A stretch of 28,960 nt of DNA from Candidatus Altimarinota bacterium (GTDB taxonomy: Bacteria > Patescibacteriota > Gracilibacteria > UBA1369 > LOWO2-01-FULL-3), in NCBI GenBank assembly GCA_023231115.1, contig JALNWA010000011.1:1-28960 (forward strand). Reading direction: 5' to 3'. The notes below the pieces were generated by a model. That model saw only the letters and a program-made list of their open reading frames with translations, had not been told where the DNA came from and made no database searches. Shown here piece by piece: positions 19,833 through 23,696 of the stretch (position 1 is its first letter; every line of letters starts with the position of its first letter). The translations under genes were made by a program, and so were the position numbers.

Positions 19833-20312
19833 TTACTTCCAAAGCTGAAACCATTTCTTTTTTGGAGCGCTTAACAAATTCAACTGATTTTCAAGAACAA
19901 CAATTCTTTCCTGAAAAGAAGTAATAAGTCTTAGGAAATTCTGCCTTTCGTCAGAATGCTGATTCAAAAGCCTTTCCATTGTTTGAGAAAAATTCTTGAA
20001 ATCATTCGCAGAAATATAAACTTTGTCTTCGCTTTCTTCAGTCTCTGCAAATTTTATAAAAGATTTAACTTTTTTATTTGTAACTCCGCTGATTTCATTT
20101 GAAGGAGCGTCTGTTTTAGCGCTTGCAGGAGCCTCATTTTTTATTCCGTAAAATTCACAAAAAGAATTTCTTTCAATCATATAATTAAATCCTTGAGGAG
20201 TTTTTTGTCTCTTAATCCTCATTTTTTTAGCCTTAATTGCACGTCTAATCGTTTGAATAGATTTAAGAGATAAATCTGCCGCGTCTTGTATACTGATAAA
20301 TTCTTTTTCCAT
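19833..20312 (-). CDS. MerR/excisionase-like HTH protein with C-terminal coiled coil
   Basis: The 159-residue protein begins with an HTH of the MerR/HTH_17 type: ISIQDAADLSLKSIQTIRRAI (7-27) then a basic wing (KAKKMRIKRQKT) and a GFNYMIERNSFCEFYG recognition segment. An Ala/Ser/Pro linker (about 60-75) leads to a predicted coiled coil (about 105-148), ending with a basic-aromatic tail KKKWFQLWK that may bind membrane or DNA. It is probably a dimeric regulator. A 34-nt palindrome overlaps its promoter start, consistent with autoregulation. The target genes are unknown. Confidence 0.6.
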   Translation of the reverse strand: MEKEFISIQDAADLSLKSIQTIRRAIKAKKMRIKRQKTPQGFNYMIERNSFCEFYGIKNEAPASAKTDAPSNEISGVTNKKVKSFIKFAETEESEDKVYISANDFKNFSQTMERLLNQHSDERQNFLRLITSFQERIVVLENQLNLLSAPKKKWFQLWK

Positions 20313-20374: not shown

Positions 20375-20392
20375 AAATAGATTATTCTATTT
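20375..20392. repeat. Small perfect inverted repeat at the cohesin gene end
   Basis: AAATAGA-TTAT-TCTATTT is a 7-bp inverted repeat covering the stop codon of the gene at 20387. On the minus strand it is followed by TGTGTTTGCCC. It may be a weak terminator or a second operator for the HTH gene. Confidence 0.35.
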
Positions 20393-21166
20393 GAAATTGA
20401 CAGAACCCACCGCTCTTTTCTTTCCATATTTAAACGCAAGGAAAAGGGCTAAAGTCACTACTCCAAATATAGCCATTCCAAACAAACACCAAAAGAAAAA
20501 TTTATTTTTCGAAAAATTAAAGTTTTCGAAAACGCTCGCTATTCTCTTTGAAAAGCCATCTTTCTCAAGAAGATTTATTTCGGAATTTTCAAATTTTATG
20601 TTTTTAATTTTTTCAGCTCCATTGTCCATTGCAGAAACATTTCCGTTTGAAAAAGAAAAAAGAATTTTGGAATTTTCGGCATCAGCATAAGCTTGATCTG
20701 CCATTGTATATTCAGGAATTTTAAAATAAAAATCAACTATTTTTCCTCCCTGTGTTGGGAACGAATCGCCTTTTTTTAAAGTCGCTCCAAAATAAATTTT
20801 ATTTTTTTCAGGAGAATTTTTCACCAAATAAAAAGGTTCTCCGCCGGCTTCCAAAAAATCACCGGCTTTATATTCAACAAAAGAAATTTTCTTCGCGTCA
20901 TACTTTAAATGGAAAGAAACGCCTATCACAGGAGAAAAAACGTCTTCTGCATACACGGAAATTTTAAAAGAATTATCGTCTATAAAATTTTTTTCAATAA
21001 AAATTCTTCCATTTTTAGTCTCAACATCACTATTCACATTGTTTTCGAGAATAAAACTTTCGCCGCTTATTTCAAACAAAGTATCATCAATAACATCGGC
21101 GAAAACTTTATTTTCAATAAAAAAAAGTATGAGAACGAAAACACAAAACGCTATAATCTTTTTCAT
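20387..21166 (-). CDS. Membrane-anchored cohesin-domain protein
   Basis: The 259-residue protein has a signal peptide (1-23, ending VFA-D), a beta-rich cohesin-like domain (about 64-198; SVYAEDVFSPVIGVSFHLKYD followed by FVEYKAGDFLE... is the usual first half, and GGKIVDFYFKIP a later strand), then a charged linker, a membrane helix (224-246) and a short basic tail (KYGKKR). The C-terminal helix anchors it with the cohesin outside. Cohesins bind dockerin modules with high affinity; the upstream gene encodes a secreted protein with a dockerin, so this is a likely receptor. Sequence similarity to known cohesins is only by pattern. Confidence 0.68.
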   Translation of the reverse strand: MKKIIAFCVFVLILFFIENKVFADVIDDTLFEISGESFILENNVNSDVETKNGRIFIEKNFIDDNSFKISVYAEDVFSPVIGVSFHLKYDAKKISFVEYKAGDFLEAGGEPFYLVKNSPEKNKIYFGATLKKGDSFPTQGGKIVDFYFKIPEYTMADQAYADAENSKILFSFSNGNVSAMDNGAEKIKNIKFENSEINLLEKDGFSKRIASVFENFNFSKNKFFFWCLFGMAIFGVVTLALFLAFKYGKKRAVGSVNFK

Positions 21167-21198
21167 TTTTTTAATAAATTATAAAAATTTTTATCATG

Positions 21199-21226
21199 GG
21201 AGGGGACTGTGGAAAAAATCCCCTCC
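21199..21226 (-). terminator. Hairpin downstream of the cohesin-dockerin gene
   Basis: GGAGGGGA (21226-21219 on the minus strand) pairs with TCCCCTCC (21206-21199), an 8-bp GC-rich stem with a 12-nt loop. T-rich sequence follows only after a further 10 nt, so termination may be partial, reducing the amount of the anchored cohesin relative to the dockerin protein. Confidence 0.5.
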
Positions 21227-21237
21227 ACACGATTTAT

Positions 21238-22710
21238 CTAGTATTTAAGCCCGAAATTCGCACCGATGACAATCAAATCAGCGCCATCAATAATTCCGTC
21301 ATAATTAAAATCTTTCAAAGCATCGTATTCTTCATCCGCATATTCACTTCCAAAAGATCTGGCAAGTTTCTCTATGTCTTTTCCGTCTATACGATCGCTT
21401 CTGTCGCTATCGCCTTTGAGTCCGCGCGTCTCAGTTCCAGAAATGCTAGACGCTCCACCGGTTATGCCGTTTTTTACAGCAAAAACTTGATATGAGTATT
21501 CAACACCAACAACTATTTTTGTATTATCAACATAGAAATTATCGCTTCCTTCTTTGATAATCTCATAAGTGCCATTTACGTTTTCTCTTTTTACAACATA
21601 AGTCGAACCTGCAATTTGGTCCCAAGTAAGCCCAAAACTATATCTCTCTTGTCCTGCGGAGATTTTCAAATTTGTAATATTTAGAGCACTACTGCTACCG
21701 ATGGTTATAGTGGTTCCCGTAAATTTTGTGACCATATCTCCTATTGTGTCAGCCAAAAAACTGCTCGCGCCAAAAGACAAAGCGGTTGTTGTCGAAGTCG
21801 TATTTTTTACATTAAAAACAATGTCCAAAAGTTTTCCGCTTCCGTCAACACCACTTGGCGGATTAACAAGTCGCGCATCGCCGACAATAACAGTTCCCTC
21901 AACTCCATTTTGAAGAGCCACACTGAAAGAAGTTTCTTTTAAGTCAGCCTTCAAAAAAGATGATTCAGTAGCCGAAATATAAGAAAGGACACTTGGGTCA
22001 TAATTTATTTCAAATCCATATCCATACAAATCCACGATGTCTTTTGCGTCAATTGAAACAGTGACATTTTCTCCAATGCTTGCGGTTGCGCTGGCAATAG
22101 AAACTTCAGGTCCATGTCCTGCATAAACGCTATTTGCACCGGCCGGTGTTCCCAAAATACTGCCGCCATTTATGCCGACAGCTCCATTTCCTGCAACAGC
22201 CGTGCCAAAATTTGTTGCACTATCAACTTTTACTAAAGGATCAATTCTTTCCATTGTTGCCTTGCTGGTCGCATTTCCGGAATACCACGCACCACCGCTT
22301 GCATTCACGCTGTCTACGACCAATCCCGCAGTATCTTTCAAAACCAATGAATCTCCGGCATTCGCAAGAGAAAGCCCGATTACAGCATTTGCAGTCAAAT
22401 TTTTAACACTGTCTTCGTTGTCCTCAATCAAAAAATATCCGTGAGGAGCGATTTTTCCTGAAACGATTTCATATTTTGTAGTTGTGTCATCCTCGATAAA
22501 CCATCCGCTTAAATCGATTTCCAAAGAAGTTGGATTGTAAAGTTCAATCCACTCATCATTCGAATCATCGCTTGTGCCGGCCCAGGCCACTTCGTTTATA
22601 ACAACATCTCCAAGTCCTGCCGCAAAACTTGTGACGCTTTTAACGATAAGAATTGACGACGCCAAGCAAACGAGCGCTGTCAAATTAAGGAATTTTTTCA
22701 AACTTTCCAT
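21238..22710 (-). CDS. Secreted lamin-tail, cohesin, Fn3-like and dockerin protein
   Basis: The 490-residue protein has a signal peptide (about 1-31), a lamin-tail domain (about 34-190; VVINEVAWAGTSDDSNDEWIELYNP is its typical start), a cohesin-like domain (about 201-337), an Fn3-like domain (about 343-428) and a C-terminal dockerin (430-490). The dockerin has two calcium-binding loops: D434, D436, S438, D442, D445 and D467, N469, D471, D475, D478, each followed by a hydrophobic helix. Having a cohesin and a dockerin in one chain allows head-to-tail assembly or attachment to the membrane-anchored cohesin encoded just downstream. No catalytic domain is present. Specificity between the modules is inferred. 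Confidence 0.78.
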   Translation of the reverse strand: MESLKKFLNLTALVCLASSILIVKSVTSFAAGLGDVVINEVAWAGTSDDSNDEWIELYNPTSLEIDLSGWFIEDDTTTKYEIVSGKIAPHGYFLIEDNEDSVKNLTANAVIGLSLANAGDSLVLKDTAGLVVDSVNASGGAWYSGNATSKATMERIDPLVKVDSATNFGTAVAGNGAVGINGGSILGTPAGANSVYAGHGPEVSIASATASIGENVTVSIDAKDIVDLYGYGFEINYDPSVLSYISATESSFLKADLKETSFSVALQNGVEGTVIVGDARLVNPPSGVDGSGKLLDIVFNVKNTTSTTTALSFGASSFLADTIGDMVTKFTGTTITIGSSSALNITNLKISAGQERYSFGLTWDQIAGSTYVVKRENVNGTYEIIKEGSDNFYVDNTKIVVGVEYSYQVFAVKNGITGGASSISGTETRGLKGDSDRSDRIDGKDIEKLARSFGSEYADEEYDALKDFNYDGIIDGADLIVIGANFGLKY

Positions 22711-22862: not shown

Positions 22863-23687
22863 CTATTTTTTAATCAAAAGTTCCTCCAATGTTTTTTGAA
22901 ATCCGGAAATCGCTCGGCGGTTATCTATCCTTATCCTAGGCAAAATCAGCATGTCATCATTACTCAAATTTGCTTCGCCTTCATTTGTAGTCAGGGCTAT
23001 TTTATATCCATTTTCTTTGAGAGTTTTTATTACAAGTTTGTTGTATTTTCCAGAAGGAAAAACGAAACTTAAAGGTTCAACGCCAAAATTATTTTTCAAA
23101 AAATCTCCGGAATCCAAAATCTGCGACAAAAGATTATTTTTACTAAGACTACTCATTGAAGAATGACTTTTTGAATGAGAAATTATTTCTATCCCGGCAG
23201 AACGGCAAGCCCTTAATTGCTCCATTGTCATGTGTCCCTTATTCCCAATCATGTCTGTGATAATCGCATTTGAAGCGGTAAATCCATACTTTTGCAAAAC
23301 CGGAAGAGCGGTCGTGTAAAAATCTTCAAGTCCGTCATCAAAAGTCAAAACGATAGATTTCTCAGGCACTTTTCCGTCTTCGATATCTTTTAAATTTATT
23401 GTTGTATAACCATTCTCTTTCAAATATTTCATTTGTTCTTCGAAATATTCAGGGCTTATAGAAAGCCTCCAGCCCATCGGATCAAAATTTTTATCAACAT
23501 TTCTAACATAGTGATACATCAAAATTGGAATTTTTGTGGAAACATTTTGATTGGGATAGTCAAAAGAAATAACGCTGTCTAGCGCAGACAAAAGGGTTGA
23601 ATTGTTGTTTACAGAAAATGCAAACGGCAAAACAAGGACAAACAGCAAAGAAAAAATAACGCCTATACTTAAATGTTTTTTCTTCAT
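22863..23687 (-). CDS. Secreted polysaccharide deacetylase (NodB family)
   Basis: Starting at the ATG at 23687 the protein has 274 residues: a basic N-terminus with a hydrophobic signal or anchor helix (about 5-25), then a NodB domain. The motif TFDDG (115-119) gives the catalytic base and metal Asp, HSKSH (171-175) gives the metal histidines, and PILMYHYV (54-61) is the usual first strand. The family removes acetyl groups from peptidoglycan or surface glycans. A three-codon upstream ATG at 23696 lies between the likely -10 (23702-23697) and the start point, so 23687 is preferred. It is upstream of the cohesin-dockerin gene but has its own promoter. Confidence 0.85.
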   Translation of the reverse strand: MKKKHLSIGVIFSLLFVLVLPFAFSVNNNSTLLSALDSVISFDYPNQNVSTKIPILMYHYVRNVDKNFDPMGWRLSISPEYFEEQMKYLKENGYTTINLKDIEDGKVPEKSIVLTFDDGLEDFYTTALPVLQKYGFTASNAIITDMIGNKGHMTMEQLRACRSAGIEIISHSKSHSSMSSLSKNNLLSQILDSGDFLKNNFGVEPLSFVFPSGKYNKLVIKTLKENGYKIALTTNEGEANLSNDDMLILPRIRIDNRRAISGFQKTLEELLIKK

Positions 23688-23696
23688 TGCGCCCAT

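Follow-up and report, generated by a model that had tools for sequence, protein, structure and literature searches.

A conserved gene pair of Patescibacteria predicted to form an enzyme-free cohesin–dockerin surface system

The end of the scaffoldin CipA of Clostridium thermocellum (type II) carries a cohesin, an Ig-like module and a C-terminal dockerin, and this dockerin is received by a separate, anchored cohesin. The system nearest to the one considered here is the non-cellulosomal, archaeal cohesin–dockerin pair ORF2375/ORF2376 of Archaeoglobus fulgidus, in which ORF2375 presumably also has a cohesin and the two genes presumably adjoin. Binding of A. fulgidus Doc75 to Coh76 is reported to be strong, and cohesin–dockerin bonds are counted among the strongest protein–protein contacts known (PMC9705933). 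According to a review cited in PMC9012536 and PMC10066038, cohesins and dockerins outside cellulosomes are known from all three domains of life. ANME archaea, for which PMC9012536 gives no known cellulose degradation, encode proteins that combine a dockerin with cohesins and are proposed there to attach proteins to the cell surface. In the cip-cel operon of Clostridium cellulolyticum, a stem-loop of −24.3 kcal/mol follows the scaffoldin gene, in the cipC–cel48F spacer; of 33 stem-loops of this kind in the whole genome, 28 are without a U-run, and PMC4423207 reports from RNA mapping and reporters that the stem-loops set cellulosome stoichiometry. No report of the gene pair described below was found in the part covered of the literature on cohesins, dockerins and lamin tail domains (LTD) in these bacteria or on non-cellulosomal cohesins.

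Modules of the two proteins

The window analysed here is a whole stretch of 28,960 nt from Candidatus Altimarinota bacterium (contig JALNWA010000011.1). A preliminary description had placed two genes in it, here called A and B, and both were found there on the minus strand, with B downstream of A across a spacer of 71 nt. The features are as follows.

22863..23696, minus strand: polysaccharide deacetylase, neighbour (Pfam 2.2e-26; no dockerin by Pfam)
21238..22710, minus strand: gene A, secreted LTD–cohesin–Fn3–dockerin protein, 490 aa (ORF and Pfam)
22618..22710, minus strand: export signal of A, N-terminal and hydrophobic, residues about 1–31 (hydropathy 2.32; helix 2–26 in the AF2 model)
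22303..22614, minus strand: lamin tail domain of A, residues 33–136 (Pfam PF00932 LTD, E 4.9e-19)
21703..22107, minus strand: cohesin of A, residues 202–336 (Pfam PF00963, E 8.3e-11)
21445..21678, minus strand: Fn3-like domain of A, residues 345–422 (Pfam fn3, E 0.033, below cut-off)
21250..21420, minus strand: C-terminal dockerin of A, residues 431–487 (profile A3 to 2y3n_B, 2.7e-6; helices 443–452 and 476–485)
21376..21411, minus strand: dockerin calcium loop 1, residues 434–445 (sequence and orthologue alignment)
21277..21312, minus strand: dockerin calcium loop 2, residues 467–478 (sequence and orthologue alignment)
21193..21233, minus strand: hairpin starting 4 nt after the A stop codon, no U-tail (folding, −24.1 kcal/mol)
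20387..21166, minus strand: gene B, membrane-anchored cohesin, 259 aa (ORF, Pfam, AF2 and fold match)
20621..20971, minus strand: cohesin of B, residues 66–182 by Pfam, fold match about 49–201 (PF00963, E 2.5e-7)
20423..20503, minus strand: C-terminal membrane helix of B, residues 222–248, then a basic tail (AF2 and hydropathy)
19833..20312, minus strand: possible third gene, HTH-like protein, association uncertain (BLAST cluster in 18 of 43 loci)

The modules previously proposed for A (LTD, cohesin-like, Fn3-like and dockerin, in this order) were recovered by Pfam and AF2 and are conserved, the fn3 and dockerin matches being below their Pfam cut-offs. The AF2 model of A has a mean pLDDT of 91.9, but its pTM is modest (0.62), so the arrangement of the domains is not fixed by the model. 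Both cohesins exceed the PF00963 cut-off of 24.1 bits (A 42.7, B 31.4), the profile on which the preliminary description had staked their assignment; cohesins also head the fold-comparison lists, and the cohesin beta-sandwich fold was found. A chance match of the B cohesin was ruled out by this comparison of folds; PDB sequence searches with B and with the B profile listed no cohesin. Between A and B the cohesins are remotely alike (hhalign probability 68%, E 4.8e-5).

The best three Foldseek matches of A were chains of 4fl4 and 3kcp (E 3.4e-15 to 3.8e-15), multimodular structures of CipA that we take to be its cohesin–X–dockerin piece, although their joint superposition with A is loose (rmsd about 13 Å). 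A is like the CipA C-terminus in these matches and in its module order. Unlike a cellulosomal scaffoldin, with several cohesins and a CBM, it has one cohesin and no CBM match in Pfam, and B is anchored by a membrane helix, whereas the anchoring scaffoldin of CipA is held by SLH domains. No enzyme with a matching dockerin was found in any of 11 relatives searched with the dockerin family profile (A3), where the sole strong match was A; on this ground, and on the single cohesin of A, a cellulosome was rejected. The fourth Foldseek match (2w1n, E 4.1e-14) is Clostridium perfringens GH84C, where a cohesin is followed directly by Fn3, as in A; unlike A, 2w1n is part of a glycoside hydrolase and no dockerin appears in its construct title. 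We know of no anchored partner for the GH84C cohesin–FnIII. LTD-bearing proteins are common in the class to which the relatives belong, the A profile matching 130 of 288 genomes, many in the LTD part only and often in long frames. Roles in membrane targeting and DNA association have been proposed for bacterial LTDs (PMC6085458, PMC4486849); in the preliminary description the LTD of A was seen as a possible ligand-binding tip.

The dockerin of A has two calcium loops of 12 residues, and in the AF2 model a helix comes after each. The loop positions read earlier from the residues proved correct: in an alignment of 40 orthologues (three of the 43 loci described below were omitted), D434, G443, D445, D467, G476 and D478 are invariant. 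Positions 1 and 12 of each loop thus never vary, and the other ligand positions are D, N, S or T; residue 436, for example, is D in 23, N in 12 and T in five sequences, and residue 469 is N in 19, T in 18 and S in three. Both recognition helices are also conserved among orthologues. By Pfam (Dockerin_1, PF00404; residues 432–480, E 0.41) the window protein scores 11.3 bits, below the cut-off of 22.9, while the orthologues of the 11 relatives score 25.7 (G005), 16.8–22.2 (seven) or are unlisted (three). Kinship with solved dockerins was found with the family profile, whose top five PDB matches are all dockerins (6kg9_A, 2.4e-4, in addition to 2y3n_B), with EF-hand proteins from the sixth onward. 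The two halves of the dockerin are each highly conserved yet unlike one another at the recognition positions (family consensus R/K-11, E-14 and R-18 in half 1; S-11, I-14, D-15 and N-19 in half 2), so the symmetric dual binding mode found in many cellulosomal dockerins is unlikely for A.

The model of B (mean pLDDT 82.6) consists of a cohesin core and the C-terminal helix, which, together with hydropathy (threshold, a mean of 1.6 over 17 residues), bears out the membrane anchor proposed before. Such a C-terminal hydrophobic helix, as a rule with a basic tail, occurs in 38 of 43 orthologous B proteins. The other five (G101, G072, G235, G141 and G257; loci L103, L105, L108, L114 and L117) stop after the cohesin, and their only hydrophobic segment is N-terminal. 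Conversely, 12 of the 43 are without the N-terminal segment, one being borderline (L100), and all 12 have the C-terminal one; in the other 11 (L092, L099, L104, L107, L109, L111, L115, L116, L118, L120 and L121) the signal is missing despite use of the longest frame. Every B (43/43) has at least one strongly hydrophobic segment and none lacks both ends, so that a predicted membrane segment is constant in B while its place is variable. Since these 12 are without an N-terminal segment, their cohesin could be cytoplasmic. By the positive-inside rule, the basic C-terminal tail would put the cohesin outside, though export without a signal is unusual.

Distribution and pairing of A and B

A search with A gave 825 relatives among 7991 candidates scored, and the named relatives among the best 120 were mostly Gracilibacteria or Peregrinibacteria MAGs; the search with B gave 19 relatives. 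Sequence comparison indicates that B changes faster than A, its cohesin dropping to 18% identity across loci. A scan of genome contigs located 11 loci, all in Peregrinibacteria or Peribacteria MAGs. Each of the 11 genomes has a single B, and its single strong match to the A3 dockerin profile lies in A itself; G004 has an extra weak match (E 0.15) in a 2363-aa frame.

Together with the window and 31 further genomes, these give 43 loci, in all of which B lies downstream of A on the same strand. These B proteins score 32–295 bits with the B profile (A5), which was itself built from 43 B proteins, many of them from scored loci; the B of G024, G044, G203, G274, G257, G101, G072, G235, G141, G129 and G223 was left out of it. 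B is the next ORF after A in 41 loci and the second in two, where a further ORF call intervenes. The 43 include seven genomes of the class in which B seemed absent by the first profile. By that profile, B is present in 31 of 288 genomes drawn from the class of G001; the dockerin is present in 39, all 31 falling within the 39. One of the 39 dockerin matches (G264) is in another protein, a 1429-aa frame. The other 38 genomes are recovered by the full-length A profile, as is a cut-off A in G227, and in the remaining 91 of its 130 matching genomes this profile covers, among the matches listed, mainly the LTD part. A phylum sample of 379 gave 21 dockerin matches, of which 11 are strong (all in the class draw) and 10 are weak and in other frames.

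Within the order of G001, whose named members here are Peregrinibacteria and Peribacteria MAGs, 55 of 89 genomes have the dockerin, with one match each, and the same 55 have a B match. Among the 34 genomes without the dockerin, 33 have no B match and G227 matches only inside its cut-off A. Forty of the 55 are among the 43 loci. The other 15 were judged by match coordinates, some dockerin or B matches running across a stop codon; dockerin and B adjoin on one strand in 14 of them, and in G309 each lies at the end of a separate contig. Genes for a dockerin protein and a cohesin protein are therefore side by side in 43/43 loci and 14/15 further genomes. Because the genomes and loci share ancestry, the cases of adjacency and co-occurrence cannot be counted as independent.

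Other neighbours of A occur in fewer loci than B. The preliminary description called the system one without enzymes, which is true of A and B themselves; the polysaccharide deacetylase gene is directly upstream of A in 10 of the 43 loci. By the same BLAST clusters, a glutamate dehydrogenase gene is near the pair in 19 loci and a gene that we label PPDK-like in 18, indicating that the synteny of A and B is partly shared with unrelated housekeeping genes. The HTH-like gene is two places downstream of A in 17 loci. Its product, which has a conserved C-terminal end, is possibly a regulator: an orthologue matches HTH_17 (3.2e-6), and the window copy has no Pfam match above cut-off. No tblastn match pointing to a plasmid origin was found among 72,556 plasmid records, the PHROGs search matched no family, and the sole NCBIfam match was sub-threshold and to an unrelated model.

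The hairpin between A and B

The hairpin noted earlier between the genes is present and is conserved in relatives. The whole spacer of the window folds at −26.0 kcal/mol, with z −7.5 against mononucleotide shuffles. With strong hairpins defined by −15 kcal/mol or lower and z −3 or lower (first 70 nt folded, mononucleotide shuffles), 25 of 29 A–B spacers of 25–150 nt have one, compared with 1 among 69 co-directional spacers elsewhere between conserved genes (Fisher p 4e-18, uncorrected for relatedness); the remaining 14 of the 43 A–B spacers were outside these limits or had an intervening ORF. After B, strong hairpins occur in 4 of 21 spacers. The A–B hairpin sequences differ between lineages. 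The start of 27 strong hairpins is at a median of 6 nt after the A stop, and four have a U-tail while 23 do not. A strong 3′ stem-loop of the upstream gene, mostly without a U-run, is the pattern expected of selective RNA processing and stabilization. The energy is similar to that of the cip-cel stem-loop and both are 3′ of a scaffoldin-like gene, the A–B hairpin being known from sequence alone.

At convergent gene ends of the same loci, hairpins of similar look were seen in 22 of 38 cases, only three of the 22 having a U-tail, and a terminator after A is for this reason conceivable. Terminators in these genomes may not need U-runs, given how rare U-tails are at convergent ends. A terminator scan found none at the A–B hairpin, but its 8-base loop limit would miss longer hairpins. 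A reading to be taken seriously is that A and B are neighbours transcribed apart, with the hairpin just the terminator of A, though we lean away from it: hairpins are commoner after A (39/43) than at convergent ends (Fisher p 0.0008), and 11 of the 43 B frames begin 20 nt or less from the A stop or overlap it, some starts perhaps having been called early. Separate transcription does not count against binding between A and B. The earlier suggestion that the hairpin sets the ratio of A to B is plausible, though in view of the convergent ends the hairpin may be a terminator.

Docking on B and its alternatives

In the reading we favour, with a probability of about 0.68, A and B would be a minimal, enzyme-free cohesin–dockerin surface system. 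B would sit in the cell membrane with its cohesin facing outside; A would be secreted, and its C-terminal dockerin, folded round two calcium ions, would plug into the cohesin of B, so that the cell surface would display the LTD, cohesin and Fn3 modules. A would then act like a one-cohesin scaffoldin (cohesin, Ig-like module, end dockerin) and B like an anchoring scaffoldin. We infer the A–B bond, its calcium need and the outside position of the B cohesin from the modules, and likewise what the cohesin and LTD of A may hold. The preliminary description had left A to polymerise or to dock on B. The observation of the pair is sound and more than chance, and binding to B is predicted from adjacency (43/43), co-occurrence (55/55), the single B and single strong dockerin match of each genome (11/11) and the precedent of A. 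fulgidus. ANME archaea differ in having many variable proteins, with S-layer and transporter partners, where A and B are one fixed pair per genome.

Pairwise distances were compared over 40 loci (three of the 43 dropped). The partial correlation of the dockerin was 0.36 with the B cohesin, 0.28 with the A cohesin, 0.12 with the LTD and 0.08 with Fn3; with ranks the values were 0.30, 0.37, 0.11 and 0.10. As an arbiter of which cohesin takes the dockerin, these mirror-tree distances gave no decision, the order flipping between the two analyses. Other rank correlations were 0.26 between the A and B cohesins, 0.23 between LTD and Fn3, and, for the B cohesin, 0.21 with the LTD and 0.16 with Fn3; because the B cohesin also tracks these last two, the distance signal is small. 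The data would suit dockerin binding to both cohesins or to either.

The dockerin of A might also, or mainly, bind the cohesin of another A, giving a fibre that ends on B, with the hairpin keeping A in excess. Cohesin and dockerin on one chain, the hairpin after A, the similar tracking of both cohesins and the want of any other strong dockerin of this type in the 11 genomes to fill the A cohesin speak for such chain building. We nevertheless hold it doubtful, as the resemblance between the A and B cohesins is remote, modules of one chain may track each other for other reasons, and in cellulosome scaffoldins the own dockerin and the own cohesins are of different types. Somewhat less probable still is that the A cohesin receives other dockerin proteins, from the same or a partner cell, making A an adaptor between B and cargo in a two-tier scaffold. 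It is supported by a row of genes in the same phylum (L141, below) and another above-cut-off dockerin protein in G001, beside a membrane protein in which a cohesin is suggested by eye and not found by Pfam, but PF00404 is above cut-off in just 2 of the 11 relatives, and in G005 the match is A itself. It is improbable that the modules are structural spacers, with the dockerin capping A within its own chain, the cohesins plain beta-sandwiches and no binding between A and B: the modest pTM of A leaves room for this, but the calcium loops and both recognition helices are conserved and B stays with A. Taken together, docking on B is likely, the chain model possible and the ratio model plausible. 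A long shot, slightly less probable than the spacers, is a code within the one dockerin, whereby one half binds the cohesin of the next A and the other half that of B, the hairpin fixing the A:B ratio and the fibre length. If true, bacteria with small genomes, for which no cellulosome was found, would use a single module type both to assemble a calcium-locked surface fibre and to anchor it.

Other cohesin and dockerin proteins were seen in relatives and in the phylum sample. The row at L141:3039-6430, in a genome of that sample, is a two-tier version of the A–B logic. Of its three genes, one encodes a dockerin protein (PF00404, 2.8e-7), the next combines two cohesin stretches with a dockerin (0.001, below cut-off), and the third encodes a cohesin protein (9.6e-11) in which a hydrophobic helix is visible by eye at the C-terminus. 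In G004 (L046:822-7359), a subtilisin-like protease has a dockerin-like repeat near its C-terminus by eye, unlike the A dockerin and with no dockerin found by Pfam, and its neighbour has a cohesin at the N-terminus (PF00963, 1.9e-14; unlisted by hmmscan) and three SLH domains. In G001 (L049:672-3494), the cohesin-like protein mentioned above (304 aa, C-terminal membrane helix) stands in a row with the dockerin protein of 301 aa (PF00404, 4e-6) and a membrane protein resembling WxLIP (0.014, below cut-off). Weak PF00404 matches (E up to 1) were disregarded because 9 of 14 control genomes match too. A saccharibacterial dockerin gene is named among essential features in PMC10633639.

The use of cohesin–dockerin bonds outside cellulosomes is poorly understood. 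The pair is a stripped-down case, with one dockerin, two cohesins and no enzyme, kept across much of an order of Patescibacteria, and with it the purpose of non-cellulosomal cohesins becomes testable with two small proteins, which might also find use as an orthogonal display tag. Ratio control of the cellulosomal kind may operate in these bacteria as well, as the conserved hairpin suggests. Many Patescibacteria probably live on other cells or in association with them, and the A–B pair would be a handle on how these bacteria dress their surface.
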